NCBI RefSeq assembly: GCF_001891125.1
Contig: NZ_CP015247.1
Coordinates: 948,501 to 1,012,500, forward strand
Direction: 5' to 3'
Source: Leuconostoc suionicum
Lineage (GTDB): Bacteria > Bacillota > Bacilli > Lactobacillales > Lactobacillaceae
DNA length: 64,000 nucleotides
Part shown: piece after piece, positions 14,097 to 58,816 of the stretch
Layout of the letters: each line of letters starts with the position of its first letter
Position numbering within the stretch: the first letter of the stretch is position 1
The notes under the pieces: generated by a model
What the model saw: the letters and a program-made list of their open reading frames with translations, nothing else
Database searches by the model: none
What the model was told of the DNA's origin: nothing
Program-made: the position numbers and the translations under genes

Positions 14097-14147
14097 TAGC
14101 TATCACTGGTATACTATCTATAAAATAAAGAAAGCGACAAGTTAACT

Positions 14148-15921: not shown

Positions 15922-15941
15922 TTGTATAGGAGTATAATTTT

Positions 15942-16571: not shown

Positions 16572-16609
16572 AAAAAGCAATACATATTATGTGTTGCTTT
16601 TTATTTTTT
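16572..16609. terminator. terminator of the rgg gene (leftward) and of read-through
   Basis: AAAAAGCAATACA pairs with TGTTGCTTTTT (one mismatch) around a 7-nt loop; T-rich on the right, A-rich on the left, so usable in both directions. It abuts the stop codon of the leftward regulator. Confidence 0.75.
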
Positions 16610-17481
16610 CAAAAATGATTGTAATTATCAAGAAAGTGTTGCCAACGTTTTTGATAAAGCTTTGCTAAATGTTTTGAGTTTAGAATCTCAAAAATATAAA
16701 GTGATTCTTGTATTTTTTTTTGTGCTGACTCGTAATTCTTTTGAAGATATAGCAATAAACCTTCAATAAAATGAAGCTCTGTTTTTTCATAAAGATATTG
16801 CTCATTATGAATTAAAGTATGTGCTTCGGTAATCATCTTTGATAACTCTATCACGTGATTGGTATTTGCCATTGTCAAAGCAGTTGTTAATATGACGTAT
16901 AGCAAGTCGGCTTGATGATTCCAGTTCACATCTACCGTGTCAGAACCTTTCTTGATCATTTGTTCTGTAAGATAATAGGATTGAAGTGGTTCAAATAAGC
17001 TAATAATGCTCATATATAGTCTAATCTCATAGTGAGTCCAAGTTTCTTTGGTGAACAAATAGTCATATAAAAAATTTTTTTCAACTAAAGTCAACTCTGA
17101 TAATTGATGTTTTTCTAGTGTAGCTTTTTCTTTCAAAAAGTTGACGTAATAATATTGTTCGTGATTAGTTTGCCATTGTTGATAATAATAATCACGAAGC
17201 TTCATAGAAGATGCTATAGATTCCTCATCAACGTAGTCTTTTGTATCATCATAATGAAATGGTTGATATCTTTGATTCATCTGATTGTCAAGATAGACAA
17301 ATTCTTCTACGGATACATTGATGTTTAATAACAAGGAGTAAAGTTTATCAAAAACAATGTTACTTTGTCCACGTTCGAAACGTGACAAGAAAGATTTTGA
17401 AACAATATTTTTTGATGCCTCAGTTAAACTGATTCCTTTAGCCTCTCGCAAATATTTAAATGTGTCTCCATAAGTATTCAT
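16609..17481 (-). CDS. Rgg/GadR/MutR-family transcriptional regulator
   Basis: A 290-residue protein with an N-terminal Xre-type helix-turn-helix (residues 1-60, LREAKGISLTEASKN…SKSFLSRFERGQSN) and a long all-helical TPR-like C-terminal domain, the Rgg/MutR layout. These regulators usually respond to short hydrophobic peptides or to metabolites. It diverges from an FMN reductase and MFS pump, which are the likely targets. No gene for a short SHP-like peptide is visible in the 98-nt divergent region, so either the signal is encoded elsewhere or the ligand is not a peptide. Confidence 0.88.
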   Translation of the reverse strand: MNTYGDTFKYLREAKGISLTEASKNIVSKSFLSRFERGQSNIVFDKLYSLLLNINVSVEEFVYLDNQMNQRYQPFHYDDTKDYVDEESIASSMKLRDYYYQQWQTNHEQYYYVNFLKEKATLEKHQLSELTLVEKNFLYDYLFTKETWTHYEIRLYMSIISLFEPLQSYYLTEQMIKKGSDTVDVNWNHQADLLYVILTTALTMANTNHVIELSKMITEAHTLIHNEQYLYEKTELHFIEGLLLYLQKNYESAQKKIQESLYIFEILNSKHLAKLYQKRWQHFLDNYNHF

Positions 17482-43903: not shown

Positions 43904-44689
43904 ATGAAAAATTATAAACGCGGTCGGTTTGCGAGAAGAATCCTATTAGGTATTGTCATATTGATAGGTATTGTCTATTTAAACCGTGTGTCGATTTTGC
44001 AAAAAATTGTTGCACTAGGTTCGCAATCACAACTGATTAATATTGATAAACAAAGTAATTCACCGACACAAAATGATGAGCTAGCCAAATTAAAATATAC
44101 TGGTCAAACAGTTGTTGAAATCAATCATAATCAACCAACATTTAGTCAAGAAGACTTACAAATTAAACAGGGTGGCTGGCAAAAGCTATCTTCATTAGAT
44201 TGGTTAGGCAGACCACAAGCTGCTAATGCGTTGCTTAACAAAAAATTGATGCCGCCTTCTCAAAAGTATAAAGCGCGTGAACGATTAACTATTAAAACGC
44301 CAGGTTACCATGCCATCAAAACGGGAACGAATAATACAGACTGGTTATACAACCGTAGCCATCTGATTGGGTATCAATTTACTGGTCTAAACAATGAAGC
44401 CAAAAATTTGATCACGGGGACACGACAGTTGAACGCAGACAGTCGTGTCAATGCAAAAAGTATGGTGACTTATGAAACTGAAATTGCTGATTACTTGCAT
44501 CAATCAAAAAATAATTATGTGCGTTATCAAGTCAAACCAATTTACAAAAATGTTGGGTTAGTACCCCGTGGTGTTCACATGATGGCACAGTCAAATGACA
44601 ATACTTTGAAATTTAATGTCTATGTTTTTAACGTTCAAGATGGTTGGACAATTAACTACTTAAACGGTAAGGCTGAAAGGAGTGAATAA
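43904..44689 (+). CDS. DNA/RNA non-specific endonuclease, membrane anchored
   Basis: A 261-residue protein with an N-terminal signal anchor (about 13-28, LLGIVILIGIVYL) and an extracytoplasmic EndA/NucA-type beta-beta-alpha-metal nuclease domain. The active-site strand is NRSHLIGYQFTGLNNEAKN with catalytic His153; the usual DRGH is NRSH here. The later Asn-rich ITGTRQLNADSR helix carries the metal-binding Asn. It starts 15 nt behind the RHH gene. Homologues degrade extracellular DNA or take part in uptake; on conjugative plasmids they are common cargo. Confidence 0.87.
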   Translation: MKNYKRGRFARRILLGIVILIGIVYLNRVSILQKIVALGSQSQLINIDKQSNSPTQNDELAKLKYTGQTVVEINHNQPTFSQEDLQIKQGGWQKLSSLDWLGRPQAANALLNKKLMPPSQKYKARERLTIKTPGYHAIKTGTNNTDWLYNRSHLIGYQFTGLNNEAKNLITGTRQLNADSRVNAKSMVTYETEIADYLHQSKNNYVRYQVKPIYKNVGLVPRGVHMMAQSNDNTLKFNVYVFNVQDGWTINYLNGKAERSE

Positions 44690-45403
44690 GTGAAAGATGC
44701 AATAGAATTCAAAACAAGTCAAATGAAGGCACTCATCAAAAGAAGAAATGTTTTGAATAAAAAATATGATACAACGCTACCCGAAGATATTCCTTTAGAG
44801 GTTAAATCAGAACTAGAGCTTATTGTAAATTTGTTAAATGAATTTGACATCAATCAATTAATTTTTGATGAAAGACCAACAATGATTGGAATTAAAAATT
44901 CACGAGATGAAGAATGGTATTTTCAACAAATGAAATATTGGGTAGAAAGACACCCAAATGCTCTTAATGCGAAGTTTAGTCGAAGTAGTGTCTATAAGTT
45001 TGCTTTGCACTTCTTCGTAGAAAATATTGCCCTAAATACCAACAATGCACGTCTTAATTATTCAGAACTAGCCCAGAAAGTAAATGATGCCAACTCCACA
45101 AAAAGTGATTCAAAATTGACTGCGCAATTGGCAAATGTAGAGAATTTACTAGGTTTTCTTTTAACCATGCAGCAACGTCAACTTGAATACATTCCAGAAG
45201 GCATTAATTTAGAAAATGGTTTTGTTAAATACGCCATTAACCCAATTAATCCCACAGAGTTCCAACAATTTGGTACACCCACAGAACTCAATCCAAACAA
45301 TGAATTGGCACAATCTTATGAAGAATATAAAAAAATTCGGAGTCGCGATAAGCAGCTGATCAAAAAATATCACCAAACAGGAGGACAACTCGATGACGAT
45401 TAA
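44690..45403 (+). CDS. hypothetical protein of the mobilization operon, 237 residues
   Basis: A mostly helical, charged soluble protein starting at GTG 44690, immediately behind the nuclease stop, with AAGGAGTG 8 nt before. The central part (FSRSSVYKFALHFFVENIAL) looks like an RHH or helix-turn-helix region, and the C-terminus is Lys/Gln-rich (KKIRSRDKQLIKKYHQTGG). It overlaps the next gene by 11 nt. No family is recognised; it may be an auxiliary DNA-binding component of the relaxosome. Confidence 0.7.
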   Translation: MKDAIEFKTSQMKALIKRRNVLNKKYDTTLPEDIPLEVKSELELIVNLLNEFDINQLIFDERPTMIGIKNSRDEEWYFQQMKYWVERHPNALNAKFSRSSVYKFALHFFVENIALNTNNARLNYSELAQKVNDANSTKSDSKLTAQLANVENLLGFLLTMQQRQLEYIPEGINLENGFVKYAINPINPTEFQQFGTPTELNPNNELAQSYEEYKKIRSRDKQLIKKYHQTGGQLDDD

Positions 45404-45707
45404 AAAGCATAATAAAAGAAAAGCACAACTGACAAAGTATTTAGAACAACTTGATGAATTCAATTGGCACCATCCTACTCAAGTTAGTGAGATGGCTGAC
45501 AGTCAACATGAACGCGATAATCGTACGTACTATTTGGCTCAGATAAGTTTAATTCTGTTTAATAACTATCAACAGTCCTACATGCAAATTGCTCAAATGC
45601 TGAACATGTCTTCCAGAACAGCCCGCCGTTTGACAATTGATTATGAACAAGATTTTGATAGTTTAGAAGAGATTATGGAGGAATTGCAAAATGGCGAAGA
45701 CTGGTGA
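45393..45707 (+). CDS. helix-turn-helix protein of the mobilization operon
   Basis: A 104-residue protein with a C-terminal helix-turn-helix (YMQIAQMLNMSSRTARRLTIDYE, about 66-88) resembling sigma-70 region 4 or Xre-like folds. Overlaps of 11 nt with the gene before and 17 nt with the relaxase gene after show tight coupling. GGAGG precedes the ATG. Likely binds oriT or regulates the operon. Confidence 0.75.
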   Translation: MTIKKHNKRKAQLTKYLEQLDEFNWHHPTQVSEMADSQHERDNRTYYLAQISLILFNNYQQSYMQIAQMLNMSSRTARRLTIDYEQDFDSLEEIMEELQNGEDW

Positions 45708-47172
45708 AATTGCTGCATTTGCCCTGGGTGAAAAAAAGACGGCAATGGTCAATTTACCAGCGCAGTTTGTCACGTCTAGTACAGCAGATATGAAGGGACA
45801 AAAATACTCAGATTTAGTTGACTATGCTAATAATTCGGAAAAGACAAACGATCTTAATAATGAGTCCATGACCGATTTAATTGACTTAAAGGAACAATTT
45901 AGTAAGCCTGGCTATGCTAACCGCAATTCTGCGGTAACAGAAACGCATCCAATATTTGGTAGCGATAAACTAAATTATGATAATCACGATATTTCTGTAT
46001 TGAGAAAAGACTTGGATGAGGCTCAAAAAAATGGCAATAACATCCATGAACTCGCTTTCTCAATCAGAGGTGATTGGTTAGTTAAAAACAATCTCTATGA
46101 TCCCGAGACCCGTATGATAGACCAAAATAAGTTGAAGCATGCAGAACAAGAGGTTGCTAAGACGCTAATTAACAAAGGATTTAATTTACCTTTGGGAGAA
46201 GATGAAAATGACGTTGTTTGGTTTGGTGTGATTCATCAGGATACTGACCACCTAAACATGCATCTGTGGTTTGCTAAAAAAAGCCAAGAAACGCGGTCTG
46301 AGATGGTCAAGCAAGAAGGTAAGTACAAAGGGCAGCCAATCGGCGTTATACCTCTGGAAGTGATTGAACAAGCCAAGCGACAGTTTAGAAAACAATTAAT
46401 GTCGTCACAGGAACTAAGACGGCATCAGGAAATATTAAAAGGTGTTGGTGGCTTTAAAAAAGAAATTGTTGAGACAGCGCCAGAGAACCTTTTAAATGAC
46501 CGACACGCCAAAGCCATCAAGAAAATTTATGATGCTTTACCTCAAGACATGAAAGGTCGGTGGCAGGTTGGTAATGCTCATTTAACCGCTGGAAAAGGCA
46601 AAATGGCAAAAGCAAATCAATTAACAAATCAACTCTTAGACGATTTGTTTGAAAAGGAACTCAAACAAGAATATGAGGGCTTCAGGTCGCTGGCACAAGA
46701 ATACGACGCCATTAATATTGAAGACCAGGGCATGATGCATAAGGGACAACGCAAATGGTCTGAGAATAAGGAAGAGGAATTAAGGAAACGCTTAGCGAAT
46801 CAAATCTACAAACATTTAGCACAAATTGAAGACACCTCAATAAATGATATTGACCAACAAATGTCGGAACTACTAAACCATGTTGAACATCGCGACAAAG
46901 GCAGTAACGCAGATAAAACAAAAATAGTATCTAGCCCTCAGGAAAAGAATTTGGCCCCAAAATCACCGGCCAACAATGTAAAACAAAATTCAAAGCGCAT
47001 AGGCGATCAGATGCGAGTGCGGGGTGGTTCGTTTAATAAAATTAGTCGTTTGTGGCGGCAGGACGTCCGTGCTGAGACAAACGCAGAACGTCAATTCTTA
47101 AGAAATCAAAAGAAAGTTGAACAAGAAAAGGCTAACGAAGAATACGAGTCAGAAATATCCAGAAGATTGTAA
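45691..47172 (+). CDS. MobL-like relaxase
   Basis: A 493-residue protein. The histidine cluster HQDTDHLNMHLWF at 182-194 (HxD…HxxxH) is the metal-binding motif III of MOB relaxases and resembles the MobL group; an N-terminal Tyr (such as Tyr39 in GQKYSDLVDY) would be the nucleophile. The C-terminal half is helical and charged. GGAGG lies before the ATG. It would nick oriT and pilot the strand; with no coupling protein or T4SS here, transfer would need a helper element. Confidence 0.85.
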   Translation: MAKTGEIAAFALGEKKTAMVNLPAQFVTSSTADMKGQKYSDLVDYANNSEKTNDLNNESMTDLIDLKEQFSKPGYANRNSAVTETHPIFGSDKLNYDNHDISVLRKDLDEAQKNGNNIHELAFSIRGDWLVKNNLYDPETRMIDQNKLKHAEQEVAKTLINKGFNLPLGEDENDVVWFGVIHQDTDHLNMHLWFAKKSQETRSEMVKQEGKYKGQPIGVIPLEVIEQAKRQFRKQLMSSQELRRHQEILKGVGGFKKEIVETAPENLLNDRHAKAIKKIYDALPQDMKGRWQVGNAHLTAGKGKMAKANQLTNQLLDDLFEKELKQEYEGFRSLAQEYDAINIEDQGMMHKGQRKWSENKEEELRKRLANQIYKHLAQIEDTSINDIDQQMSELLNHVEHRDKGSNADKTKIVSSPQEKNLAPKSPANNVKQNSKRIGDQMRVRGGSFNKISRLWRQDVRAETNAERQFLRNQKKVEQEKANEEYESEISRRL

Positions 47173-47524
47173 GGAGAAAAATTTTCTTGTCAAATGGTTT
47201 TTTAGCATCTGTGACAATTACAGATAAAAGCATTATAATAGTTTACCCTCGATAAATAATGTAATGACAATATCTCGCACCCTTTTAAAAATTTTTCATT
47301 TTAGACTAATTAATAACAAAATTAAAATAAATAATTTATTTATTCCATATCTTATTTAGCTTTTTTATAGGACTTTAAAAGTCCGTAGCGATTATTTGAG
47401 TACAATTTCGTATTTCAAAAAAATATAAAAAATGTCAATCTATGTTAGATTATCTAACATTAAATGTGAATAATATAATAATGTGTGATAAATTCTAATC
47501 ATATCATAAGGAAGGTTGTATTCG
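47173..47524. promoter_or_regulatory. control region of the pxp operon with 19-bp palindrome
   Basis: ATGTTAGAT-T-ATCTAACAT at 47442-47460 is a perfect palindrome. TATAAT at 47474-47479 is a good -10; the palindrome covers the expected -35 (TTATCT, 18 bp spacing), so a repressor or an activator could act here. Further left are AT-rich bases and a weak GGACTTT/AAAGTCC hairpin near 47370-47385 that may end the relaxase transcript. No gene in this stretch. Confidence 0.65.
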
Positions 47525-47926
47525 ATGAAACTAGAAGATATTAATGACATTGTGAAAATTTTAAATGAAAATAACTTGACCCATATTTCTTTTAGGAATG
47601 GTGATTCTAAAATTAGTATTTCAAAAAATAATCTTAGTAATTTTCAAAGCGGTGTGAATGCTGAGTCAGAGACAGAAAAACAAGTACCTACTAGTGAGTA
47701 TATTACATCGCCTACGGTCGGAACTTTTTATGTTTCATCTGATCCAGAGTCAACACCGTTTATTTCTGTTGGACAAAAAGTAACAAAGTCAACAGTTGTA
47801 GGTATTGTTGAAGCTATGAAAATGATGACTGATGTTTTAGCAAATAAGGATGGTTTAATAGCTGAAATTTTAGTTTCAGACGGTGAATCAATTGAATACG
47901 GTCAAAAGTTGTTTAGGTTATCGTAA
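47525..47926 (+). CDS. biotin carboxyl carrier protein
   Basis: A 133-residue BCCP: an N-terminal helical and linker region (1-60), then the biotinyl domain TSPTVGTFYVSSDPESTPFI … VEAMKMMTDV with the biotinylated Lys99, ending QKLFRLS. The ATG at 47525 has GGAAGG 9 nt before it. It is the first gene of a nine-gene operon and is followed by biotin carboxylase with a TAATG overlap. Fatty-acid synthesis accB is the alternative, but the pxp-type neighbours and absence of accA/accD argue for a dedicated carboxylase. Confidence 0.92.
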   Translation: MKLEDINDIVKILNENNLTHISFRNGDSKISISKNNLSNFQSGVNAESETEKQVPTSEYITSPTVGTFYVSSDPESTPFISVGQKVTKSTVVGIVEAMKMMTDVLANKDGLIAEILVSDGESIEYGQKLFRLS

Positions 47927-49266
47927 TGGGTGAAAAATTTGTAGACAATTTCAAAGTTTTAATTGCAAATCGAGGAGAAATAGCTGTTAGAATAATTCGT
48001 GCTGTCAAAATGTTAGGATTTCAAACCGTTGCGGTATATTCGTCAGCAGACAAAGACTCATTACATGTAGCAATGGCGGATGAATCAGTACAAATCGGTC
48101 CATCTAATGTTTCTGATAGTTATTTGAATCAAAAAGCAATTTTAGCAGCGGCTGAGATTACACATGCAGATGCGATTCATCCAGGATATGGTTTTTTGTC
48201 AGAAAATCCTAATTTTGCCAAGCAGGTTGAAGAAATGGGAATCGTCTTTATTGGTCCAACTAGTGAAGTTATCGCACAAATGGGTGATAAAGAAAAAGCC
48301 AGGCAATTTATGTCAGAGGCTGGAGTTCCTATTGTTTCAGGTAGTGATAGTTTTTTTGAAGATGTTGATATTGGTTTTAAACAGGCCAAAAAAATTGGAT
48401 ATCCAGTTATGCTAAAGTCAGTAGCTGGTGGTGGCGGAAAAGGTATGCGTCTAGTGTCAAATCAAGACAGTTTTAAATCGCTTTTTGAAGTAGCCCAGAG
48501 TGAAATCATGGCGTCAGTTGGTGATCCACGGATGTATCTTGAAAAATTTGTTTTTAAACCGCGGCATATTGAAGTACAAATCCTAGGTGACGGTTTAGGT
48601 AATGCCATAGTTTTAGGGGAACGAGACTGTACGATTCAAAGTCACCATCAAAAAGTAATCGAAGAAGCTCCTAGTCATTTACTAGATGAAACGACACGAA
48701 AAAAAATGTTAGCAGTTTCTCTAAATGCTGTAAAAAAAATGGCTTATCGAAGTGCAGGCACTTTTGAATTTTTGTATCAGGGTCCTGGCAAATTTTATTT
48801 CATGGAAATGAATACAAGAATTCAAGTTGAGCATGCTATTTCTGAAGAAGTTTCAGGAATCGATATTGTATCAGCTCAAATTCAATTAGCAAGTGGTCGA
48901 ACTATAAATGACATTTCAATTGGCTCAAAAAACAATTTTGCTATTGAGGCACGCGTGTCCGCTCTATCCGCAGGCACAATTACTGGATTACATTTGCCCA
49001 CCGGATTAGGAATTAGAATTGAAACGGCTGTGTATCAAGGATATAAAGTACCTCCATATTATGACGCGATGATTGTAAAAATTATTGCAACTGGCATGAC
49101 TCGGCATGAGACATTAAAGAGATTGCAGATAGCGATAGAAGAGACAGTTATATTAGGTGTGGACACAAATTTAGATTTGTTGATGAGAATTATTATTCAC
49201 CCCGACTACATGTCAGATAAGAATAAAACAGACATTGACTGGTTGGATTTTCAAATGAAAGAATAG
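47926..49266 (+). CDS. biotin carboxylase subunit
   Basis: A 446-residue ATP-grasp biotin carboxylase that carboxylates biotin on the carrier protein with ATP and bicarbonate. The N-terminal KVLIANRGEIAVRIIRA, Gly-rich loop KSVAGGGGKGMRLV, metal site EMNTRIQVEHA and later catalytic Arg region are intact. Length fits stand-alone BC (about 450). It lies in a TAATG overlap with the carrier gene and 12 nt before the DUF1445 gene. Confidence 0.93.
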   Translation: MGEKFVDNFKVLIANRGEIAVRIIRAVKMLGFQTVAVYSSADKDSLHVAMADESVQIGPSNVSDSYLNQKAILAAAEITHADAIHPGYGFLSENPNFAKQVEEMGIVFIGPTSEVIAQMGDKEKARQFMSEAGVPIVSGSDSFFEDVDIGFKQAKKIGYPVMLKSVAGGGGKGMRLVSNQDSFKSLFEVAQSEIMASVGDPRMYLEKFVFKPRHIEVQILGDGLGNAIVLGERDCTIQSHHQKVIEEAPSHLLDETTRKKMLAVSLNAVKKMAYRSAGTFEFLYQGPGKFYFMEMNTRIQVEHAISEEVSGIDIVSAQIQLASGRTINDISIGSKNNFAIEARVSALSAGTITGLHLPTGLGIRIETAVYQGYKVPPYYDAMIVKIIATGMTRHETLKRLQIAIEETVILGVDTNLDLLMRIIIHPDYMSDKNKTDIDWLDFQMKE

Positions 49267-49278
49267 GGAATTTTTAAA

Positions 49279-50049
49279 ATGACACCAACAGAATTTAGAA
49301 AAAAAGTGAGAGATAACGAATATCAAAAGCCAACTGCTGGGATGTGCCCAGGATATGCTCAAACAAATTTAATTGTTCTTCCTTGGGAAGATGCATACGA
49401 CTTTCTATTATTTGCTCAGCGTAATCCTAAACCTATTCCCATCCTGGAAGTCACAGAAGTAGGAAGCAGAGAGTTGCAAACATTAGGGAATGACATTGAT
49501 GTTGCTACAGATTTTCCAAAATATCGTATTTATCGAAATGGCAAAATGGTTGACGAATATTTGTCCGTTGTAGACTTTTGGCGTGAAGATTTGGTTAGTT
49601 TTTTGATAGGATGTAGTTTTTCCTTTGAGGATTTACTAGTCGATGCGGGCATCGAAATTCGTCACATTACTGAAAAAGCAAATGTGCCAATGTTCAATAC
49701 AAATATTCCCTTAAAGCAAGCGGGTAAATTTTCGGGGAATATGGTTGTAAGCATGAGGCCTATAAAAAGTAGTCAAATAGCTACAGCGGTTAATGTAACG
49801 AATCGGTTGCCAGGCGTTCATGGTGCTCCAATTCAGATTGGAAATCCAGCAGAAATTGGTATATATGATCTTGCCGATCCAGATTATGGTGACGCGGTTA
49901 CCATTAATGAAAATGAAATACCTGTGTTTTGGGCATGTGGTGTAACGCCACAAGCAGCAGTAATGGCTTCGAAACCAAAATTTGCCATTACACATTCACC
50001 AGGACACATGTTGATTACTAATATATCAAATAAGGACCTTAGCGTGTGA
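49279..50049 (+). CDS. DUF1445 / D-glutamate cyclase-like protein (YcsI family)
   Basis: A 256-residue protein of the YcsI/DUF1445 family: N-terminal GMCPGYAQTNLIVLPWEDAYDFLLFAQRN, central SFLIGCSFSFEDLLVDAGI, and C-terminal VFWACGVTPQAAVM and TNISNKDL. The mammalian relative DGLUCY is a D-glutamate cyclase that interconverts D-glutamate and 5-oxo-D-proline, which fits the pxp genes around it. It overlaps the pxpA gene by 4 nt (GTGA). The bacterial enzyme's direction of reaction is inferred. Confidence 0.88.
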   Translation: MTPTEFRKKVRDNEYQKPTAGMCPGYAQTNLIVLPWEDAYDFLLFAQRNPKPIPILEVTEVGSRELQTLGNDIDVATDFPKYRIYRNGKMVDEYLSVVDFWREDLVSFLIGCSFSFEDLLVDAGIEIRHITEKANVPMFNTNIPLKQAGKFSGNMVVSMRPIKSSQIATAVNVTNRLPGVHGAPIQIGNPAEIGIYDLADPDYGDAVTINENEIPVFWACGVTPQAAVMASKPKFAITHSPGHMLITNISNKDLSV

Positions 50050-50810
50050 ATAAAATGATAAAAGTGGATTTTAACTCAGATTTAGGAGAAAGTTTTGGAA
50101 ATTATAAAATTGGCCTAGACAGTGAAATTTTACATCAAGTTACTTCTGCAAATGTTGCTTGTGGATTTCACGCTGGTGATGCGTCAATTATGGCTCAGAC
50201 TGTTCAACTAGCACTTGACAAAGGTGTTGCAATTGGAGCTCATCCAGGCTTTCCAGATTTACAGGGTTTTGGTCGACGTAAAATTGAGATGAATACATCA
50301 GACATCACAGATATAGTGGCTTACCAAGTTGGCGCTCTGTCTGCCTTCACCCCTGATCACAAATTGCATCACGTTAAAGCTCATGGCGCTTTATACAATA
50401 TGGCAGCGAAAGATCGACTAATAGCTGATGCTGTAATAACTGGAATTAAGTTAGTTGATCCGCAAACAATTGTATATGGATTGGCCAACAGTGAATTAAT
50501 TAAAGCAGCACAAGATGCCAATATGAAGTTCGCTCAAGAAGTATTTGCTGATAGAAATTACCAATCTGATGGGTCTCTTGTGCCACGGTCACAGCCAAAC
50601 GCCATTATTTCAAATCCAGCGGAAGCTGCTCAGCGAGCCCTTGAAATGGTGGAAAACAAATCCGTCGTGTCTGTTACCGGGGAGGTTGTGCCTCTAGCAG
50701 TGGATTCTATTTGTGTTCATGGTGACAACCACTCTGCTGTGGACTTGGCCATAGAGATTAAAAAACTGCTTCTTGATAATCAAGTTACAGTGACCAATAA
50801 AATCTGTTAA
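50046..50810 (+). CDS. pxpA: 5-oxoprolinase subunit PxpA (LamB/YcsF family)
   Basis: A 254-residue LamB/YcsF protein with the family features: KVDFNSDLGESFGNYKIG at the start, ANVACGFHAGDA near 37-48, GAHPGFPDLQGFGRR and HVKAHGALYN. In the PxpABC complex this subunit, with PxpBC, opens 5-oxoproline to glutamate at the expense of ATP. Start is GTG 50046 because AAGGA is spaced 9 nt from it and the codon overlaps the previous stop; the ATG 9 nt further is too far. Confidence 0.93.
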   Translation: MNKMIKVDFNSDLGESFGNYKIGLDSEILHQVTSANVACGFHAGDASIMAQTVQLALDKGVAIGAHPGFPDLQGFGRRKIEMNTSDITDIVAYQVGALSAFTPDHKLHHVKAHGALYNMAAKDRLIADAVITGIKLVDPQTIVYGLANSELIKAAQDANMKFAQEVFADRNYQSDGSLVPRSQPNAIISNPAEAAQRALEMVENKSVVSVTGEVVPLAVDSICVHGDNHSAVDLAIEIKKLLLDNQVTVTNKIC

Positions 50811-50822
50811 GAGGATAAAAAT

Positions 50823-52055
50823 ATGGATCAAAACAAAATAAAAAGCAACGCAGAGTTGTCAATTAATAAAAGAAGCGCGCGTTCTGTTGCGATGGGAGCA
50901 GCATTTGTCATGGCAATGGCTGCTGTTGGCCCAGGATTTTTAACACAAACAGCGACCTTTACAAGTCAATTAGGACCAAGCTTTGGGTTCGCAATTCTAA
51001 CAACAATTTTGATTGACATCGTTGTGCAAATGAATATTTGGAGAATTATTACTGTATCTGGAAAGCATGCGCAACAAATTGCTAATGATATTTTCCCTGG
51101 ATTAGGCTACTTTTTAACTTTTTTAATTGTGGTCGGTGGTTTCTTTTTTAATATTGGAAATGTTGCTGGAGCAGGACTTGGTTTAAATGTTTTGTTTGGT
51201 ATATCAGCCGAAAACGGAGCTGTCATTGCTGCTGTTTTGGCAATAATTGTATTTGTTGTCAGAAATGCATTGCTAGTTATGGATCGCACAGTACAAGTGC
51301 TAGCTGTCGTAAAAATTGCGGTTTTAATTTATATTTTGTCTGTTACTACTGTCCCCGTTAGTTCAGCAATCAAACATACCTTTTTACCAAGTAATATAGA
51401 TTTTTATTCGATAGTAACTATTGTTGGTGGTACGGTAGGGGGCTACATTTCTTTCGCAGGTGGTCACCGTTTGTTAGAGGGTGGAGTGCATGGACAAAAA
51501 GGATTGAAATACGTCAATGAGGGCGCGCTTTCAGGAATTGGAATTGCATCAGTAATTCGTGTCATGTTATTTTTAGCCGGGCTGGCAGTCGTAATGGCTG
51601 GTCATAAGTTAGATCCCTTGAATCCAGCAGCTGATATTTTTAAAATTGCAGCTGGAAACTTTGGTTATAAGTTCTTTGGTTTACTGTTGTTCGCTGCTGG
51701 CATGACTTCCATTCTCGGATCGACATTCACATCAGTGTCATTTATGAATTATTCACACTCTCCTGAGGGTGCCGTAAAATTTCAAAAGTACCGTCCATAC
51801 CTTGTCATTGGTTTCATTGCTGTTTCAACCTTAGTATTTTACATTATAGGTAAGCCCGCTCAAATTTTAGTTGTAGTTGGTGCGATTAATGGGTTAATTT
51901 TACCTATTGCTTTGGCCATTTTATTGATTGGGGCATATAAAAACAAAATTATGGGTACTGATTATAAGCATCCCATACTACTGAGCATTTTGGGCTGGAT
52001 TGTGGTCCTATTCATGGCATTTGCTGGCATCGAAACGCTCATTAATACATTATAA
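50823..52055 (+). CDS. NRAMP-like transporter (YcsG type)
   Basis: A 410-residue membrane protein with about 11 helices. The first helix reads MAAVGPGFLTQTATFTSQLG, where true NRAMP metal transporters have DPGN; the Asp and Asn of metal coordination are missing, so it is unlikely to carry metals. YcsG-type members always travel with ycsF/kip genes, and the probable cargo is 5-oxoproline or a related acid (inference). GAGGAT precedes the ATG, 12 nt behind pxpA. Confidence 0.88.
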   Translation: MDQNKIKSNAELSINKRSARSVAMGAAFVMAMAAVGPGFLTQTATFTSQLGPSFGFAILTTILIDIVVQMNIWRIITVSGKHAQQIANDIFPGLGYFLTFLIVVGGFFFNIGNVAGAGLGLNVLFGISAENGAVIAAVLAIIVFVVRNALLVMDRTVQVLAVVKIAVLIYILSVTTVPVSSAIKHTFLPSNIDFYSIVTIVGGTVGGYISFAGGHRLLEGGVHGQKGLKYVNEGALSGIGIASVIRVMLFLAGLAVVMAGHKLDPLNPAADIFKIAAGNFGYKFFGLLLFAAGMTSILGSTFTSVSFMNYSHSPEGAVKFQKYRPYLVIGFIAVSTLVFYIIGKPAQILVVVGAINGLILPIALAILLIGAYKNKIMGTDYKHPILLSILGWIVVLFMAFAGIETLINTL

Positions 52056-52066
52056 AAGGGGTCTAA

Positions 52067-52783
52067 ATGAATTCAAAAGTTATTTTTTCTGGTGACACAA
52101 GTATTAACGTTGTATTTGAAAATGTTGTTTCAGAAAAAATTAGCAATCAAGTACTATCGATAGCTAAATTAGTAGAGAGGCAACATATAAATGGGTTGGT
52201 GGATATCATACCCGCTTATCGAGAAGTTACATTTGTTTTTGATCCACTTGTTATAGATATTGCATCATTTAAGCAATTCTTAGAAAAGCAATTAAACAAA
52301 ATGGATGGTGAAATAGTTGATAAAAACGGAAGACACTATGATATACCTGTACTTTATAATGATGAAGTGGGATTAGATTTGCTAGAGGTTGCTAAATATC
52401 ATGGGTTATCTATAGAAGAAGTAATCCATCTGCATACGGCACAAGCATATAGAATTTATATGTTGGGATTTTTACCCGGTTTCGCATATCTTGGTGGCTT
52501 AGATGTAAAGCTTCATACACCTCGTAAAAAAACACCAAGACTAAGAATTCCGGCTGGATCTATTGCTATTGGTGGGGAACAAACAGGATATTATCCTGTT
52601 GACTCTCCGGGCGGTTGGCAGATTATTGGTCAAACGCCATTAGTTATGTTTGATTCGAATCGACCTGAAATAAAACTTCATGCTGGAGACAGGATGAAGT
52701 TTTATGCAATAGATAAGCTTGAATTCCAAAAATTGAAAGGTACACATTTTGATGATTTTGTTTCTAAGGAGAAAACGCTATGA
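52067..52783 (+). CDS. pxpB: 5-oxoprolinase subunit PxpB (KipI / AHS1 family)
   Basis: A 238-residue protein with the AHS1 core: HTAQAYRIYMLGFLPGFAYL, PRKKTPRLRIPAGSIAIGG and VDSPGGWQIIG. It is homologous to the first half of the carboxyltransferase domain of urea carboxylase. With PxpC it forms the heterodimer that activates 5-oxoproline. It overlaps pxpC by 4 nt (ATGA), and GGGG precedes the ATG. Confidence 0.93.
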   Translation: MNSKVIFSGDTSINVVFENVVSEKISNQVLSIAKLVERQHINGLVDIIPAYREVTFVFDPLVIDIASFKQFLEKQLNKMDGEIVDKNGRHYDIPVLYNDEVGLDLLEVAKYHGLSIEEVIHLHTAQAYRIYMLGFLPGFAYLGGLDVKLHTPRKKTPRLRIPAGSIAIGGEQTGYYPVDSPGGWQIIGQTPLVMFDSNRPEIKLHAGDRMKFYAIDKLEFQKLKGTHFDDFVSKEKTL

Positions 52784-53793
52784 ATACTATAAAAATCATA
52801 ACACCTGGAATGCTAGCGACGGTTCAAGATGATGGTAGAATAGGTCACCAGGGTGAAGGGTTTTTGAATTCTGGCGTTATGGACATTTTTTCCTATCAGA
52901 TTGGTAACGCACTTGTGGGTAATAAATCGACAGATAAACCTGCTAGTATTGAGTTTGGCGTAACTGGGGGTAAGGTAAAATTTTCGAGTAGCACTATTGT
53001 AGCTATAACTGGTGCACGTGTAAATGCAAAGCTAAATGATGCTACGGTGAGTCAGGATATTCCAATTTTAGTCAATGAAAATGACGTATTGGACTTTACG
53101 CAAATTATAGAAGGACGATTTGTATATTTGAGTGTTGCTGGTGGAATTCAGGTGCCAAAAGTTATGGGATCGCATGCGACTACTTTGGCCGTTAATTTGG
53201 GTGGTTTTAATGGAAAAAGATTAGAAAGTGGTGATGTATTGAATATTTTAGACGCGTCTCAGGCTTTTGATTACAATACTGTAAAGCTATTACCAAAAAT
53301 GCCATTAAACCTAATTAGTTTAATTAAGACAAAGAAAATTCGAATTGTGCCCGGTCCTGAATATGACTGGTTTTCGGAGGATGAATGGCAAAAACTATTA
53401 AATAAACCATTTTACTTAGGCAAGTATATTGACCGTATGGGATACCGCATAGAAGGGCCAATGATTATTTTTAAACCAGAAAATTTGTTGTCAGAAGCCA
53501 ATATGAATGGCGCAATTCAAATATCTCGCGACGGGCAACCAATTGTTTTATTAGCGGATCGCGCTACTCATGGAGGATATCCTGTCATTGCTAAGGTTAT
53601 CATTAGTGATTTAGGTATACTTGCGCAATGGCCACAACATAAACCAATACATTTTGAAAAGGTGTCATTAAATGATGCTTGGTTGGCTTCAGCGGACAGA
53701 GCTGAGGTAGTACAAGGTATCTATAAATCGAAGCCATGGGAAATTTTATTACACTCTCGAACCATGGCAAATAAAATCAAACGTTTGTTTTAG
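52780..53793 (+). CDS. pxpC: 5-oxoprolinase subunit PxpC (KipA / AHS2 family)
   Basis: A 337-residue AHS2 protein: TPGMLATVQDDGRIGHQGEG, SIEFGVTGGKVKF, YLSVAGGIQVPKVMGS and ADRATHGGYPVIAKVI are all family signatures. It is homologous to the second half of the urea-carboxylase carboxyltransferase domain, and the family is often annotated as biotin-dependent carboxyltransferase. Coupled to pxpB by an ATGA overlap; 15 nt to the aminotransferase gene. Confidence 0.93.
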   Translation: MNTIKIITPGMLATVQDDGRIGHQGEGFLNSGVMDIFSYQIGNALVGNKSTDKPASIEFGVTGGKVKFSSSTIVAITGARVNAKLNDATVSQDIPILVNENDVLDFTQIIEGRFVYLSVAGGIQVPKVMGSHATTLAVNLGGFNGKRLESGDVLNILDASQAFDYNTVKLLPKMPLNLISLIKTKKIRIVPGPEYDWFSEDEWQKLLNKPFYLGKYIDRMGYRIEGPMIIFKPENLLSEANMNGAIQISRDGQPIVLLADRATHGGYPVIAKVIISDLGILAQWPQHKPIHFEKVSLNDAWLASADRAEVVQGIYKSKPWEILLHSRTMANKIKRLF

Positions 53794-53808
53794 AAAGGAC
53801 ACGAAAGA

Positions 53809-54981
53809 ATGTTAGCAAAACGAGTCGACAGTTTAGAAGCGTCTCCAACGTTGGCAATGGGAAAAAAAGCTAAGGACATGATTGCTGATGGCATTGATGT
53901 CGTTAATTTAAGTCAAGGTGAGCCAGATTTTAATACACCTGACAATATTGGCAGAGCGGCACGGATTGCTATCAAAGATCACCTGACTGATTCCTATACA
54001 GCTACAAATGGATTAGTTGAACTCAAAAATGCTGTGGTCGCTGCAGCAAAAAGAGATTACAATGTTTCTTTATTAACCGATCAAGTTGTGATTACGACTG
54101 GCGCAAAACTTGCCCTGTATGCATTGATGCAAATATTAGTTGATCCCGGAGACCTAGTTATAACTTCTGCCCCTTTTTGGGTTAGCTATTCAGAGCAGGT
54201 CAAATTAGCCGGGGGATCTTTTAAAGCTATTGTTTCTTCTGATCCACAATTCAAGTTAACAATAGATGATCTTAGCAAATTAGAAGAAAAGCCTAAAGTA
54301 GTTATACTAAATACACCTAACAACCCAAGTGGCGCTGTTTACTCAAAGAATGAATTAGAATCAATTATTTCGTGGACAAAGACTAATGACGTATATCTAA
54401 TTCTAGATGAAATTTATGGCAAATTAGTTTATGGCGACACAGTATTTCATTCTGGATTGTCACTAGAATCTCTTGTAAACAGTAAAATGATTATTATTAA
54501 TGGCGTTTCTAAAGCATATGCGATGACTGGATGGCGTATTGGTTGGGCAATTGCTGATGTTTCTATAACGCATGTAATGACTAAAATATTAGGACACTTG
54601 ACCTCAAATCCAACTGTAGTAGCACAGTATGCAGCAATTGAAGCATTGAACGGGCAACAAAAAAGTGTCGAAACAATGAGAAAATCGTTTGAAAGTAGAC
54701 TAAATTTTTTGTATCGGGATTTGTCCGAAATTGATAATATCAGCATACCTTTTAAACCATCTGGATCATTTTATATTTTTTTTAAAATTGATAGTAAATT
54801 TATGAAAAAAAATAATTTTAAAAATACCAACGAAATCTCAATGGCACTGCTATCTGAGGAAAAACTAGCTATTCCTTCGGGTGAGGGATTTGGAATGCCC
54901 GGTTACCTTCGATTAAGCTATGCCAAATCAGAAGCCGAATTAATTGAAGCGGTTAAACGATTAAAACACTTTTTTAGCTAA
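53809..54981 (+). CDS. class I/II aminotransferase, PLP-dependent
   Basis: A 390-residue fold-type I aminotransferase of the aspartate/aromatic subgroup. Visible parts: NLSQGEPDFNTPDNI, YTATNGLVELKNAV, NTPNNPSGAVY (Asn contacting PLP), LDEIYGKLVY (Asp and Tyr) and NGVSKAYAMTGWRIGW with the PLP-lysine near residue 237. AAAGGAC lies before the ATG. Placed in the pxp operon, it would move the amino group from glutamate made from 5-oxoproline, or use glutamate/2-oxoglutarate as partner for another amino acid. Confidence 0.92.
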   Translation: MLAKRVDSLEASPTLAMGKKAKDMIADGIDVVNLSQGEPDFNTPDNIGRAARIAIKDHLTDSYTATNGLVELKNAVVAAAKRDYNVSLLTDQVVITTGAKLALYALMQILVDPGDLVITSAPFWVSYSEQVKLAGGSFKAIVSSDPQFKLTIDDLSKLEEKPKVVILNTPNNPSGAVYSKNELESIISWTKTNDVYLILDEIYGKLVYGDTVFHSGLSLESLVNSKMIIINGVSKAYAMTGWRIGWAIADVSITHVMTKILGHLTSNPTVVAQYAAIEALNGQQKSVETMRKSFESRLNFLYRDLSEIDNISIPFKPSGSFYIFFKIDSKFMKKNNFKNTNEISMALLSEEKLAIPSGEGFGMPGYLRLSYAKSEAELIEAVKRLKHFFS

Positions 54982-55030
54982 AGATAAATTATTAAAACCA
55001 TCAAGGTTTATAAATTGAGTGGAAGAAAAA

Positions 55031-55963
55031 ATGAAAAAAGTTTTAGTGGCTTCACAAGTAGATGAAATAGCCAAAACCTTTTTAATACAACAAGGATTTC
55101 AAGTGCTTGAAAATAATCAAGAAACTGATAATTGTTTTGATGAGAATCCTGAGGTTGAAGCAGGATTATTAATGCCAATTAAATTTGATGATAATACAAT
55201 GAATAAAATGCCAAATTTGAAAATTATAGCGAGGCATGGAGTTGGTTATGATAATGTCAGTCTTAGTGCTGCAACTCAGCGTGGAATCGTTGTCACAAAC
55301 ACACCTGGTGCAAATGCTAGCTCAGTGGCCGAGACTGCTTTGATGTTTTTATTGATGTCCGGACGTCAATTTGCCTCAAAACTAATCAATTCTAATACCA
55401 AAAGTTTAGCTCTTTCAACAGGTAATAGTTTTGGATACGAACTATCTCACAAAATTGTCGGCATTATTGGGTATGGGAACATTGGGCGGAAAATTGCTCG
55501 TCTTTTAAGCGGTTTCAATGTAAAAATTCTCGTAAATGCGAGACATAAATACGTGATAGACAATGGTGAAATGGCTTCATTAGTTGAAATATACGAAAAG
55601 GCAGATTATATTGTTTTAGCATTACCTGCAACACATGAAACAACACACATGATTAACTCTGCTACTCTAAAACTAATGAAAAAAAATGCCGTCTTGATCA
55701 ATGTCGGACGTGGTCAGCTTATTGATGAAGATGCATTATATAGTGCGTTAATAAATAATCAAATTTTTGGAGCAGGCTTGGACGTTACTGAAAATGAGCC
55801 TGTGAGTGCACAAAATCCATTGTATAGTCTGCCTAATGTATTTCTTACCCCACATGTTGCAGGACAATCGCGAGAAGCAAAAGAAAACGTTGCCCTCGAA
55901 GCAGCTAAAGAAATTACACGAGTATTAAATGGAAGTCAACCAAAACATCAAGTAAATAATTAG
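55031..55963 (+). CDS. D-2-hydroxyacid dehydrogenase
   Basis: A 310-residue D-isomer specific dehydrogenase. NAD-binding IVGIIGYGNIGRKIA is followed by LINVGRGQLIDEDAL (Arg), TENEP (Glu) and LTPHVAGQS (His), so all catalytic residues are present. The ATG at 55031 is preferred to GTG 55019 because GGAAG precedes it. As the last gene of the operon it could reduce the 2-oxoacid released by the aminotransferase, for example 2-oxoglutarate to D-2-hydroxyglutarate, and recycle NAD (inference). Downstream to 56181 there is no gene, only AT-rich sequence with a short IS30-like CTGCAG stretch at about 56023. Confidence 0.92.
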   Translation: MKKVLVASQVDEIAKTFLIQQGFQVLENNQETDNCFDENPEVEAGLLMPIKFDDNTMNKMPNLKIIARHGVGYDNVSLSAATQRGIVVTNTPGANASSVAETALMFLLMSGRQFASKLINSNTKSLALSTGNSFGYELSHKIVGIIGYGNIGRKIARLLSGFNVKILVNARHKYVIDNGEMASLVEIYEKADYIVLALPATHETTHMINSATLKLMKKNAVLINVGRGQLIDEDALYSALINNQIFGAGLDVTENEPVSAQNPLYSLPNVFLTPHVAGQSREAKENVALEAAKEITRVLNGSQPKHQVNN

Positions 55964-56181
55964 TCCTAGTTTAGATGCAAAAAACATATTTTAAAATTAA
56001 AACGAAATACTTAATTAAAAAATCTGCAGTACCTGTGAAAAAGAATCGTTCATGTTTTTAGTTCAAGAGTGAAAAGTAAGGATTCAACTTTTTGTATAAT
56101 TTTCAAGAACATTGAAGTCGAATGAAACTCAAATTATCAACTCAACAATTCATGATTAAAATCCTGATTATTTATTTTTAT

Positions 56182-57208
56182 GGTAGATTGTAAAATTAAA
56201 CCGAACACTTGAATAAAAAAGCCGCAGCGCCTTTAATGGTAATTGTCTAAAACAACCATAAAGGAACTGCGACTCATGACTAGTTTATCATCTCAAGAAC
56301 GCACTGTCATTCAAACTTTACTCGAATTGAATTATTCTGTTCGTGCCATTGCGCGCTTTATTAAACGCTCTCCTTCAACCGTTTCGATTGAAATTCATCA
56401 AGTTACACCCTATAAAGCTGAGATTGCTCATGCGTTGGCATTGAAAAAACGTCATCTACGTGGTCGTCATGACACGCTAACACCAGCTATCGCTGTCTTG
56501 TTGAATCACCACATTGGTATATTGAAGTGGTCACCAGAAACCGCTGCGCATGTTTTAGGGTTACCTTTCAAAACGATTTATAATTGGCTCAATGCTGGTC
56601 GACTCAAACTATCATTGGCTGATTTACCTGACAAAGGTATCCGTCAAAAGCGTCAATCTGATGGTAGACGACAAGTATTTGTGCATGGTCGTTCGATTGA
56701 AACGAGACCTGAAAGTGTGAAAGCACGACAAACCTTTGGACATTTTGAAGTTGACACCATGCAATCGGGTAAAAGACGTGGTGATGTGCTGGTGACAATT
56801 ACTGAAAGACTAAGCCGGCAACATATCGTGAGACAGGTCACTGGGCGCAATAGTCAGGCAGTGACACCAGTCTTAATTCATTTTTTTCAAGGGATCAAAA
56901 ATGCCAAGTCAATCACTGTTGATCGTGGGCGAGAATTTGCAAAATATAACGAAATCGAGCAAAAACTAGGCATTCCAGTCTATTTTGCGCACCCATATTC
57001 ACCAGAAGAACGTGGGAGTAATGAGATATTAAATCGATACGTCCGTCGTTTTATACCGAAAGAACGCAAAATTGAAACAGTTAGCGCCAAAGAATTAGAT
57101 CAAATTAATCATTGGATCAATGCGAGACCAATGAAAACACTCAACTGGCAATCACCACGAAAGGTTTTTCAGCAGTTTGCAGTGTTCGGTTAATTCTTGC
57201 AATCTACC
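56182..57208 (+). mobile_element. IS30-family element, variant type
   Basis: A 1027-bp element with ends GGTAGATTG…CAATCTACC and a 4-bp direct repeat TTAT (56178-56181 and 57209-57212). It is a diverged relative of the 1032-bp copies, not the same isoform. It separates the pxp operon from the hsdS relic. Confidence 0.88.
56276..57193 (+). CDS. IS30-family transposase (variant)
   Basis: A 305-residue DDE transposase, intact, roughly 75-80 percent identical by eye to the 306-residue proteins of the other copies. Core residues Asp in HFEVDTMQSG, Asp in SITVDRGREF and Glu in SPEERGSNE are retained. The ATG at 56276 aligns with the start of the other copies; the 11-codon extension upstream covers the terminal repeat region and is not needed. 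Confidence 0.92.
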   Translation: MTSLSSQERTVIQTLLELNYSVRAIARFIKRSPSTVSIEIHQVTPYKAEIAHALALKKRHLRGRHDTLTPAIAVLLNHHIGILKWSPETAAHVLGLPFKTIYNWLNAGRLKLSLADLPDKGIRQKRQSDGRRQVFVHGRSIETRPESVKARQTFGHFEVDTMQSGKRRGDVLVTITERLSRQHIVRQVTGRNSQAVTPVLIHFFQGIKNAKSITVDRGREFAKYNEIEQKLGIPVYFAHPYSPEERGSNEILNRYVRRFIPKERKIETVSAKELDQINHWINARPMKTLNWQSPRKVFQQFAVFG

Positions 57209-57312
57209 TTATTTGAAACTAGAAACAGTAAAATTCAGATACTCTACTACATACTGCTCTTATGCTAGATTTACGGACAGATTTTCCTCTGCCCTGTAAA
57301 CTAATAGCATAG

Positions 57313-57648
57313 GAGCAATTTGATGATTGTACAACTGGATCTCATTATGTAGATTTCCCTTTTAAGATTAAGAGCTCCGCAATGAAATTACTTAGTTTGA
57401 ATGATAATTCTGACAATTCCTATTTTATGTTTAATACATTGAAGAATATAAAATATGTACCTCAAAGTCATGAACGTCATTGGATTTCTAAATTTTCATC
57501 ATTTGAAATCTATAGACCTAGTCAGGAAGAACAACAAAAGATCGGTTCATTCTTCAAACAGTTAGATGCCAGTATCGCTCTTCATCAACATAAGTTAGAT
57601 TTGCTCAAGGAACAGAAAAAAGGTTTCTTGCAAAAAATGTTTCTATAG
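57313..57648 (+). pseudogene. hsdS fragment (type I restriction specificity subunit, C-terminal part)
   Basis: The frame opens after a stop at 57310 and encodes the end of a target-recognition domain plus the final helix: [19 protein letters not shown], then [43 protein letters not shown], the canonical HsdS C-terminus. A full HsdS has about 400 residues; 5' part, hsdM and hsdR are absent. The bases between the IS and 57312 seem to be more of the same gene with stops. It cannot give specificity alone. Confidence 0.82.
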
Positions 57649-57705
57649 TAATCCACCTATACCAATCAAAGTTGACATAATTGTGACTATCAAAAGTAAC
57701 GCTAC

Positions 57706-57732
57706 AACAGGCTTTTTAAGGCCTGTTTTTTG
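57706..57732 (+). terminator. terminator behind the hsdS relic
   Basis: ACAGGC (57707-57712) and GCCTGT (57721-57726) with TTTTTAAG between, then TTTTTT. A paralogous hairpin is at 36231. Confidence 0.78.
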
Positions 57733-57784
57733 TTTGTAAAATTGCAAAATTCACAAGCTAATTTAATGGCGCATTTTTACATCT

Positions 57785-58816
57785 GGCAGATTGTAAAATT
57801 AAACCGAACACCTTGCATAAAAAAACTGCAGAGACTTTAATGGTAATTGACTAAAATCAACCATAAAGGATCTGCAGCTTATGTCTTCTAGTTTATCAGC
57901 TCACGAACGTTCTGTCATTGAAACAATGATCAAACTTAATCATTCAACTCGAGAAATAGCCCGTTTCTTAAAGCGTTCTCCTGCAACTATTACCTACGAG
58001 TTAAATCGAATTAAACCATACAATGCACAACAGGCTCATCATTTAGCCCAGTGTAATCGGCACAAACACGGTCGCCATCCGACCCTAACACCTGAAATAT
58101 CAGCTTTTTTGAACCATCACATTGGTATCTTGAAGTGGTCACCAGAAACGGCTGCTCATGTATTGGGCATTGCTTTCAAGACCATCTACAACTGGATTCA
58201 TCATGGTTTGCTTAAAATTAAGTTATCAGATTTACCTGATAAAGGTATTCGACGTAAACGTCAATCTGACGGCCGTAGACGTGTTTTTGCTCATGGCCGT
58301 TCAATTGAAAAACGACCAAAAGCTGTCCAATTAAGACAAGAATTTGGTCATTTTGAAGTTGATACGATGCAATCTGGTAAAACACGTGGCGATGTTTTAG
58401 TGACCATCACAGAACGATTGAGTCGACAACATATCATGAGACATGTCAGTGGGCGCAATAGTCAGGCAGTGACACCAGCTATTATTAGGTTTTTCAAGGG
58501 TATAAAAAATGCTAAATCAATTACAGTTGATCACGGTCGAGAGTTTGCAAAATATGATGAAATAGAAGAACAGCTAGGCATACCGATGTATTTTGCACAC
58601 CCATATTCACCAGAAGAACGTGGTAGTAATGAAGTGCTAAATCGATATGTCCGTCGTTTTATCCCAAAAGAACGCAAAATTGAAACCATCAGTCAGAAAG
58701 AATTAGATCAAATTAATCATTGGATTAATGCCAGGCCAATGAAAACGCTCAACTGGCAATCACCACGAAAAGTCTTTCAGAAACATGCGGTGTTCGGATG
58801 ATTCTTGCAATCTGCC
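57785..58816 (+). mobile_element. IS30-family element, copy 2
   Basis: A 1032-bp copy with GGCAGATTG…CAATCTGCC ends and a 4-bp direct repeat ATCT (57781-57784, 58817-58820). It lies within the hsdS downstream region: the flanks rejoin to match the paralogous sequence at 36300-36340. Confidence 0.92.
57881..58801 (+). CDS. IS30-family transposase
   Basis: A 306-residue protein identical to the transposases at 21313 (minus) and 63068. HTH and DDE residues intact, AAAGGA before the ATG region. Identity between copies shows recent activity. Confidence 0.95.
   Translation: MSSSLSAHERSVIETMIKLNHSTREIARFLKRSPATITYELNRIKPYNAQQAHHLAQCNRHKHGRHPTLTPEISAFLNHHIGILKWSPETAAHVLGIAFKTIYNWIHHGLLKIKLSDLPDKGIRRKRQSDGRRRVFAHGRSIEKRPKAVQLRQEFGHFEVDTMQSGKTRGDVLVTITERLSRQHIMRHVSGRNSQAVTPAIIRFFKGIKNAKSITVDHGREFAKYDEIEEQLGIPMYFAHPYSPEERGSNEVLNRYVRRFIPKERKIETISQKELDQINHWINARPMKTLNWQSPRKVFQKHAVFG

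Follow-up and report, generated by a model that had tools for sequence, protein, structure and literature searches.

A Leuconostoc operon that combines biotin carboxylase components with PxpABC and may encode a split, biotin-dependent 5-oxoprolinase

We analysed a 64,000-nucleotide stretch of the Leuconostoc suionicum genome (contig NZ_CP015247.1, positions 948,501 to 1,012,500; hereafter the window, with positions counted from its first letter), in which genes for a biotin carboxylase (BC) and a biotin carboxyl carrier protein (BCCP) share a nine-gene operon with those for PxpA, PxpB and PxpC. Comparative evidence makes it very probable that BC and BCCP work with PxpBC and, with moderate confidence, we read the operon as a split, biotin-dependent form of the prokaryotic 5-oxoprolinase that follows the full mechanism outlined below with 5-oxoproline as its substrate. 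At the level of sequence, the components are present and look intact, and BC and BCCP appear dedicated to PxpBC and co-inherited with it; we infer biotinylation, carboxyl transfer, the use of 5-oxoproline, N-carboxylation, and decarboxylation.

In the proposed reaction, BC would use ATP and bicarbonate to form carboxybiotin on BCCP, which would carry the carboxyl group to the PxpBC carboxyltransferase (CT). PxpBC would place that group on the lactam of 5-oxoproline, or of a near relative, PxpA would open the activated lactam, and the N-carboxy product would shed CO2 to yield glutamate. Bicarbonate would be catalytic and the net result would be the usual ATP-driven opening of 5-oxoproline, a logic like that of urea amidolyase, in which urea is carboxylated in order to be hydrolysed. 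The NRAMP-like protein of the operon would probably supply a divalent metal. The question addressed is how the carboxyltransferase-like PxpBC uses ATP in 5-oxoproline opening, and natural versions equipped with BC and BCCP make a carboxyl-transfer mechanism testable with five small proteins.

Association of BC and BCCP with PxpBC

PxpA (NF003814, 345.9 bits against a cut-off of 226), PxpB (TIGR00370, 196.8 against 145.55), and PxpC (TIGR00724, above its cut-off) are encoded together in the operon, although PxpC scores below the NCBIfam equivalog cut-off for its family (NF045499, 222.8 bits against 500). When aligned to the sequences of solved BCs (2C00, 4MV1), the window BC keeps the ATP-grasp and presumed catalytic motifs (MGDK, GGGGKGMR, HHQK, and EMNTRIQVEH), and BCCP has a lysine of the biotinylatable type. 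The biotin ligase C-domain (BPL_C) has three matches in the host genome (G000) and was matched in 12 of 18 genomes examined, weakly in one of them (G270). No match was found in G036 or in the five genomes of one genus (g33) among these 18, which does not imply that the ligase is absent, because G036 was missed despite its linked BC.

The host genome (2.05 Mb, two contigs, estimated to be 100% complete) yielded three BC, two CT_A_B (PxpC), and four biotin/lipoyl matches. One BC and one BCCP are found in an accB-fabZ-accC-accD-accA run (accA assigned by PF03255, fabZ and accD named by eye), and the remaining two BC/BCCP pairs sit in the host's two pxp clusters; therefore, each PxpBC pair owns a BC and a BCCP, and acetyl-CoA carboxylase owns a separate set. 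The chance of a BC lying within 5 kb of a given PxpC is about 1.5% (three BC genes in 2.05 Mb), and about 2e-4 for both host pairs; the grouping is not a matter of chance. The second host cluster (L011; G000:C1:1570500-1588000, 6790-17322) contains pxpB, pxpC, BC, a 75-amino-acid BCCP, and an aminotransferase gene, with pxpA 5 kb further on, as well as genes for MFS transporters and a zinc alcohol dehydrogenase. Several of the PxpB signature residues are lost there (H123 is F and F135 is R), its BC, BCCP, and PxpA are kept, and its BC groups with urea carboxylases (support 77); this cluster probably acts on another substrate.

Across the genus, PxpC is present in five of 19 genomes, at six places, all six of which have their own BC and BCCP. 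In two genomes besides the host, all nine genes recur at 97-99% identity, one of these genomes having a split dehydrogenase gene and a broken hydro-lyase (DUF1445) gene; a third has seven of the nine at 62-90% identity, again with a broken hydro-lyase gene, and a fourth has a cluster of the second type. All four relatives have both BC and BCCP, and the ratio of nonsynonymous to synonymous substitution rates within the genus (0.06-0.09 for BC, 0.15-0.16 for BCCP) indicates purifying selection. Of the three other clusters of the window type, two (L252, L250) have a broken DUF1445 gene, with a stop codon in one and a frameshift in the other.

We examined 20 genomes for BC and PF03255 (AccA) matches. 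In G270 (98% complete, one contig) the single BC match is the BC of the pxp operon, and the only PF03255 match (E 4.6e-13) is the alpha subunit of a methylmalonyl-CoA decarboxylase, adjoining a sodium-pump decarboxylase beta gene; the PF03255 search found no true AccA in this genome. Enzymes of this type are not known to need a BC. G672 has, in addition to its pxp BC, one BC in a frame of 1152 amino acids, the length of a pyruvate carboxylase; PF03255 likewise matched nothing in this genome but a decarboxylase-type alpha subunit of the methylmalonyl-CoA kind. G541 and G468 gave weak PF03255 matches only, but have another stand-alone BC; the weak match of G541 belongs to the same decarboxylase family as that of G270. 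A survey for BC and BCCP beside pxpBC in genomes without accA, as put forward with the original prediction, was positive with respect to AccA, AccD not having been searched by family.

BCCP is also found fused to PxpC. In Faecalispora jeddahensis (L171), which has two PxpC copies, one of them is a 455-amino-acid fusion with an AccB-type BCCP whose ESMKIM motif is intact, and BC lies 33 nt downstream; in the fetched stretch of a congener (L216), the fused BCCP and BC are both absent. PxpC-BCCP fusions of 479-484 amino acids occur in three genomes of g33. Together, the separate acc operon, the BC and BCCP owned by each PxpBC pair, G270, and these fusions uphold the earlier proposal that BC and BCCP are tied to PxpBC and not to acetyl-CoA carboxylase.

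A BC tree of 59 rows, including ten sampled AccCs, groups the window BC in one clade (support 96) with pxp-linked BCs from loci of Limosilactobacillus, Secundilactobacillus, and L. plantarum; the AccCs form a clade of their own (98), outside which the window BC lies, and the tree lends no support to a stray AccC copy. BC and PxpBC distances agree across 35 loci (Mantel r 0.953, reached in 0 of 9999 permutations; L207 and L237, with cut genes, left out), a pattern that shows stable joint inheritance, not contact. On a tree of 200 PxpBC pairs, parsimony puts the number of changes in BC linkage at 13 or more when rows with fusions, with BCCP only, or with urea carboxylase are scored as linked. 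The window pair was labelled as BC-linked by hand, its BC being 3.5 kb from pxpC and beyond the 2.6-kb rule, and the pairs do not include L010, L012, L013, L014, or L028.

Of 295 genomes surveyed in the order, 15 (the host among them) have PxpC; for the phylum the figure is 124 of 398. Among the 13 order loci fetched other than the host's two, eight have separate BC and BCCP genes beside pxpBC and three have a PxpC-BCCP fusion; the other two, both from the fusion genus, have a remnant or a disrupted pxpC. In named genomes, a sample drawn with BC-linked PxpC sequences and hence biased towards linked types, 22 of 80 loci carry either BC together with BCCP or a fusion. The linked taxa include Limosilactobacillus, Secundilactobacillus, Paenibacillus, Domibacillus, Sporomusa, Pelosinus, Mediterraneibacter, Staphylococcus ureilyticus, Rubneribacter, and Faecalispora, among others. 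The module is also found on a mobilizable L. plantarum plasmid and on a 760-kb L. fermentum record labelled as a plasmid; on these records its genes are named as acetyl-CoA carboxylase subunits, an annotation that could be corrected. A PxpA profile match is present in 38 of the 40 BC-linked or fused loci.

Several matches were left out of these counts: 874-1064-amino-acid "BC" matches in L031, L032, and L035 (L031 and L035 stand apart from every other row in the BC tree), a 584-amino-acid "BCCP" match in L056 from which the motif is absent, and three loci with BCCP or fragments only (L213, L214, L216), which were not scored as linked. The fetched loci do not include G216, where the match is a 28-residue fragment. 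The 100 phylum loci that were fetched include two fused urea-carboxylase-like proteins and one BCCP alone. In a separate case (L118, genome G573), PxpABC genes are followed by one for a 72-amino-acid BCCP with ESMKME, and the PxpBC groups with the CT of urea carboxylase; no BC match was found in that genome.

The PxpBC site and competing explanations

PxpB and PxpC are the CT candidates, by family (CT_C_D and CT_A_B) and by fold, with the base lysine of urea carboxylase replaced by arginine. Residues H123, F135, R153, Q172, and W184 of the window PxpB (protein numbering; alignment-derived numbers are one lower) are the same as in ordinary PxpB, and the site is therefore PxpB-like, not urea-carboxylase-like. 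At several near-invariant positions, BC-linked and BC-free PxpBC both differ from urea carboxylase. The structural model of PxpC (mean predicted local distance difference test score 76.4, from a 12-row alignment) best matched E. coli YbgJK (5DUD), K. lactis urea amidolyase (5I8I), and Msmeg0435-0436 (3MML); against 5I8I, Z was 34.7 and the root-mean-square deviation 2.2 over 304 residues. No clean residue switch was found between BC-linked and BC-free PxpBC. The largest difference in frequency is at the PxpC column of window residue 93, which is mostly W without BC and most often Y with it, a partial difference that may be a clade effect.

A number of observations weigh against a biotin-dependent 5-oxoprolinase. 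The near-invariant residues are common to BC-linked and BC-free PxpBC, so that no PxpBC residue points to a shift in mechanism. In K. lactis urea amidolyase, K1605 (in TKYNPSR) is described as very probably acting as the essential general base of the CT (PMC5770610). It aligns with Arg153 of the window PxpB, a position that is Arg in 36 of 36 BC-linked pairs and in 99% of unlinked pairs; therefore, the chemistry must differ from that of urea carboxylase there. Most of the 100 fetched phylum loci, mainly places with enough flank, have no BC nearby, and only three have separate BC and BCCP genes; some stretches stop at contig ends, so that an absent BC can be a cut-off artefact. Two operons (L183, L229) combine two PxpBC pairs with only one BC over the length fetched, and the BC-linked pair may therefore do something else. 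In g33, the fused BCCP is decaying: its lysine is kept in L016 and L024 and lost in L023, the domain is gone in L022, and pxpC is disrupted in L027, while pxpABC is largely retained, and the only BCs of the five genomes are one AccC-type and one of pyruvate carboxylase length each. PxpABC can therefore persist without BCCP. The window-type BC clade adjoins the AccC clade (joined at 86), placing both in one larger group, so that a distant AccC origin is possible. B. subtilis PxpABC was reportedly reconstituted in vitro, by Niehaus in 2017. In addition, growth of C. glutamicum on 5-oxoproline needs pxpTABC, with no biotin partner mentioned in the available part of that report (PMC13274462). The shared residues, the decay in g33, and the double PxpBC operons thus leave room for PxpABC acting alone or for a different substrate.

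The latter possibility is that BC, BCCP, and PxpBC form a true carboxylase whose substrate is some other lactam, amide, ureido, or guanidino compound, PxpA acting on the product. It is favoured by operons in which PxpBC pairs or PxpC copies are doubled and only one of the two has BC or BCCP, by PDB entry 9YX5, where homologues of PxpBC are seen with an acyl-CoA carboxylase to which they are bound (discussed below), and by the host's second cluster, where the PxpB signature is lost and the biotin parts and PxpA remain. However, the near-invariant residues of ordinary PxpBC are retained in the PxpB and PxpC of the window, and PxpA accompanies nearly all linked or fused loci; we consider another substrate unlikely, if worth bearing in mind. 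For PxpABC to be a classical ATP-dependent 5-oxoprolinase by itself, BC and BCCP would have to be an optional booster or a conditional partner, consistent with the decay of BCCP in g33, with invariant residues that are the same with and without BC, and with the lack of BC at most of the fetched phylum loci. The purifying selection on BC and BCCP, the well-supported BC clades made up of pxp-linked genes, and the PxpC-BCCP fusion with an intact motif speak against it, and we judge this explanation to be distinctly improbable. Finally, the best NCBIfam models for both BC and BCCP are acetyl-CoA carboxylase subunits, at scores below the curated cut-offs (for BCCP, TIGR00531, 112.5 bits against 115.2), and the BC clade has AccC as its neighbour, as would suit a second acetyl-CoA carboxylase module that merely lies beside the pxp genes. 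This is hardly credible: neither accA nor accD is among the nine genes of the operon, the genome has a separate acc set, the pxp BC is the only BC match of G270, where true AccA was not found, BCCP is fused to PxpC in other genomes, and the window BC falls outside the AccC clade.

Relation to known systems

The operon shares the PxpA, PxpB, and PxpC families and the invariant PxpBC residues with the PxpABC of B. subtilis, E. coli, and C. glutamicum, and among 153 BC-free loci, many likewise have an NRAMP gene (58) or a DUF1445 gene (53) nearby. We know of no biotin components in the characterised PxpABC systems. Because PxpC is below the equivalog cut-off and the biotin parts are present in the operon, we do not regard it as simply a classical PxpABC. 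Urea carboxylase/amidolyase (K. lactis 3VA7, 5I8I) has the same four kinds of domain (BC, CT_A_B, CT_C_D, BCCP), but the operon encodes separate subunits, an AccB-type BCCP, and a BC of another clade, its PxpB has Arg for the base Lys, and urea-type residues are absent. The urea carboxylase model TIGR02712 was not reached by the split genes (PxpC 143.4 and BC 471.8 bits against a cut-off of 1303.85). The operon was not filed as a urea carboxylase because two defining features of that enzyme, a single polypeptide and the CT base lysine, are lacking.

PDB entry 9YX5 (released 2025-11-26) is a long chain acyl-CoA carboxylase complex of M. smegmatis with MSMEG_0435-MSMEG_0436 bound. As judged from its title, chain names, and sequence alignments, its chains include PxpB and PxpC homologues and AccA3 (BC-BCCP), and the His, Phe, and Arg of the window PxpB recur in the PxpB-like chain. 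It differs from the operon in that its BC-BCCP is part of an acyl-CoA carboxylase; a chain resembling PxpA was not found in the entry, and no paper on it in the open-access literature (preprints not covered), to which all our literature searches refer. If PxpBC borrows a shared BC-BCCP, as may be so in 9YX5, some BC-less loci may be biotin-dependent too.

Further comparisons come from other enzymes and loci. The caprolactamase CapAB of Pseudomonas jessenii hydrolyses a lactam in an ATP-dependent reaction that needs bicarbonate, but has no sequence similarity to PxpABC, and the three mechanisms proposed in the part of the report available are biotin-free (PMC8453981); CapAB and urea amidolyase may serve as chemical analogies for activation by carboxyl transfer. 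The mum operon of A. baumannii includes the NRAMP protein MumT, the "allophanate hydrolase" MumH, and MumC of the "biotin carboxylase family", and was reported as a urea carboxylase (PMC5050338). It resembles our gene set in these names, a likeness of description that serves as a lead only. A 2025 paper on Lactiplantibacillus pentosus, in its available portion, reads an extra BCCP and BC as an additional acetyl-CoA carboxylase and discusses pxpB and pxpC apart (PMC12427679). Split CT homologues were noted as unstudied genes in a 2011 biotin carboxylase study (PMC3199775). No paper joining BC and BCCP to PxpBC in 5-oxoproline metabolism was found, and a biotin-driven PxpBC enzyme, as proposed here, appears not to have been described or tested before in that literature.

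We are evenly divided on a broader reading, in which biotin-dependent lactam opening and BC-free PxpABC would be two ways to power one active site, with bicarbonate as a recycled co-catalyst. The biotin parts would then have been added on several occasions, within Bacillota and outside it; at least one mobilizable plasmid carries this form.

Operon organization and neighbouring genes

The original prediction of nine same-strand genes was confirmed in its gene order and families by open reading frame (ORF) coordinates and by the Pfam and NCBIfam profiles from which the nine calls were made (Table 1). Neighbouring ORFs overlap by 1-4 nt or lie 11-37 nt apart. The best BCCP start is the ATG, which is preceded by AAGGAAGG; an alternative start, TTG at 47516, is mechanical output of the ORF finder and was set aside in its favour. 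A promoter and terminator scan stayed near the shuffled background (42 against 36.5 and 6 against 5.1).

Table 1. Genes of the operon at window positions 47525-55963
Product	Position	Strand	Length (amino acids)	Profiles and remarks
BCCP, AccB-type	47525..47926	+	133	Biotin_lipoyl; candidate biotinyl-lysine K99 in EAMKMM
BC	47926..49266	+	446	Biotin_carb_N/CPSase_L_D2/Biotin_carb_C; 1-base overlap with BCCP stop
DUF1445 / putative hydro-lyase / D-glutamate cyclase family	49279..50049	+	256	D-Glu_cyclase
PxpA (LamB/YcsF)	50046..50810	+	254	LamB_YcsF; NF003814; length as translated from GTG 50046
NRAMP-like transporter	50823..52055	+	410	Nramp
PxpB	52067..52783	+	238	CT_C_D; TIGR00370
PxpC	52780..53793	+	337	CT_A_B; TIGR00724; 4-base overlap with pxpB
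Class I aminotransferase, accessory	53809..54981	+	390	Aminotran_1_2
D-2-hydroxyacid dehydrogenase, accessory	55019..55963	+	314	2-Hacid_dh

The last two genes of the operon have a restricted distribution. In a first survey (120 loci with a match), the aminotransferase profile matched only the host's two clusters and the dehydrogenase profile four ORFs, including that of the window; in a second survey (83 loci), they matched two and three loci, respectively. Within the genus, three other clusters are of the same type as the operon; two have the pair, one of them with a split dehydrogenase gene. The pair was rejected as part of the operon core, being rare in relatives, and these genes look like lineage-specific accessories. 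The proposed onward route from glutamate through 2-oxoglutarate to a D-hydroxyacid found no support in this distribution. As for the transporter, YcsG, the NRAMP counterpart in the pxp operon of B. subtilis, was shown to be an Mn importer (PMC10448178), and by analogy the NRAMP-like protein of the operon is more likely an Mn importer as well.

The operon is flanked by a MobL-type relaxase gene upstream (45691-47172) and by two similar IS30-type transposase genes downstream (56243-57193 and 57881-58801; HTH_38 and rve domains), which suggests from gene content that the cluster lies in a mobile region. In a plasmid megablast of positions 44000-58000, none of the 226 records covered 80% of the query, whose downstream end, in the IS30-type transposase, is where the 20 plasmid matches listed begin.

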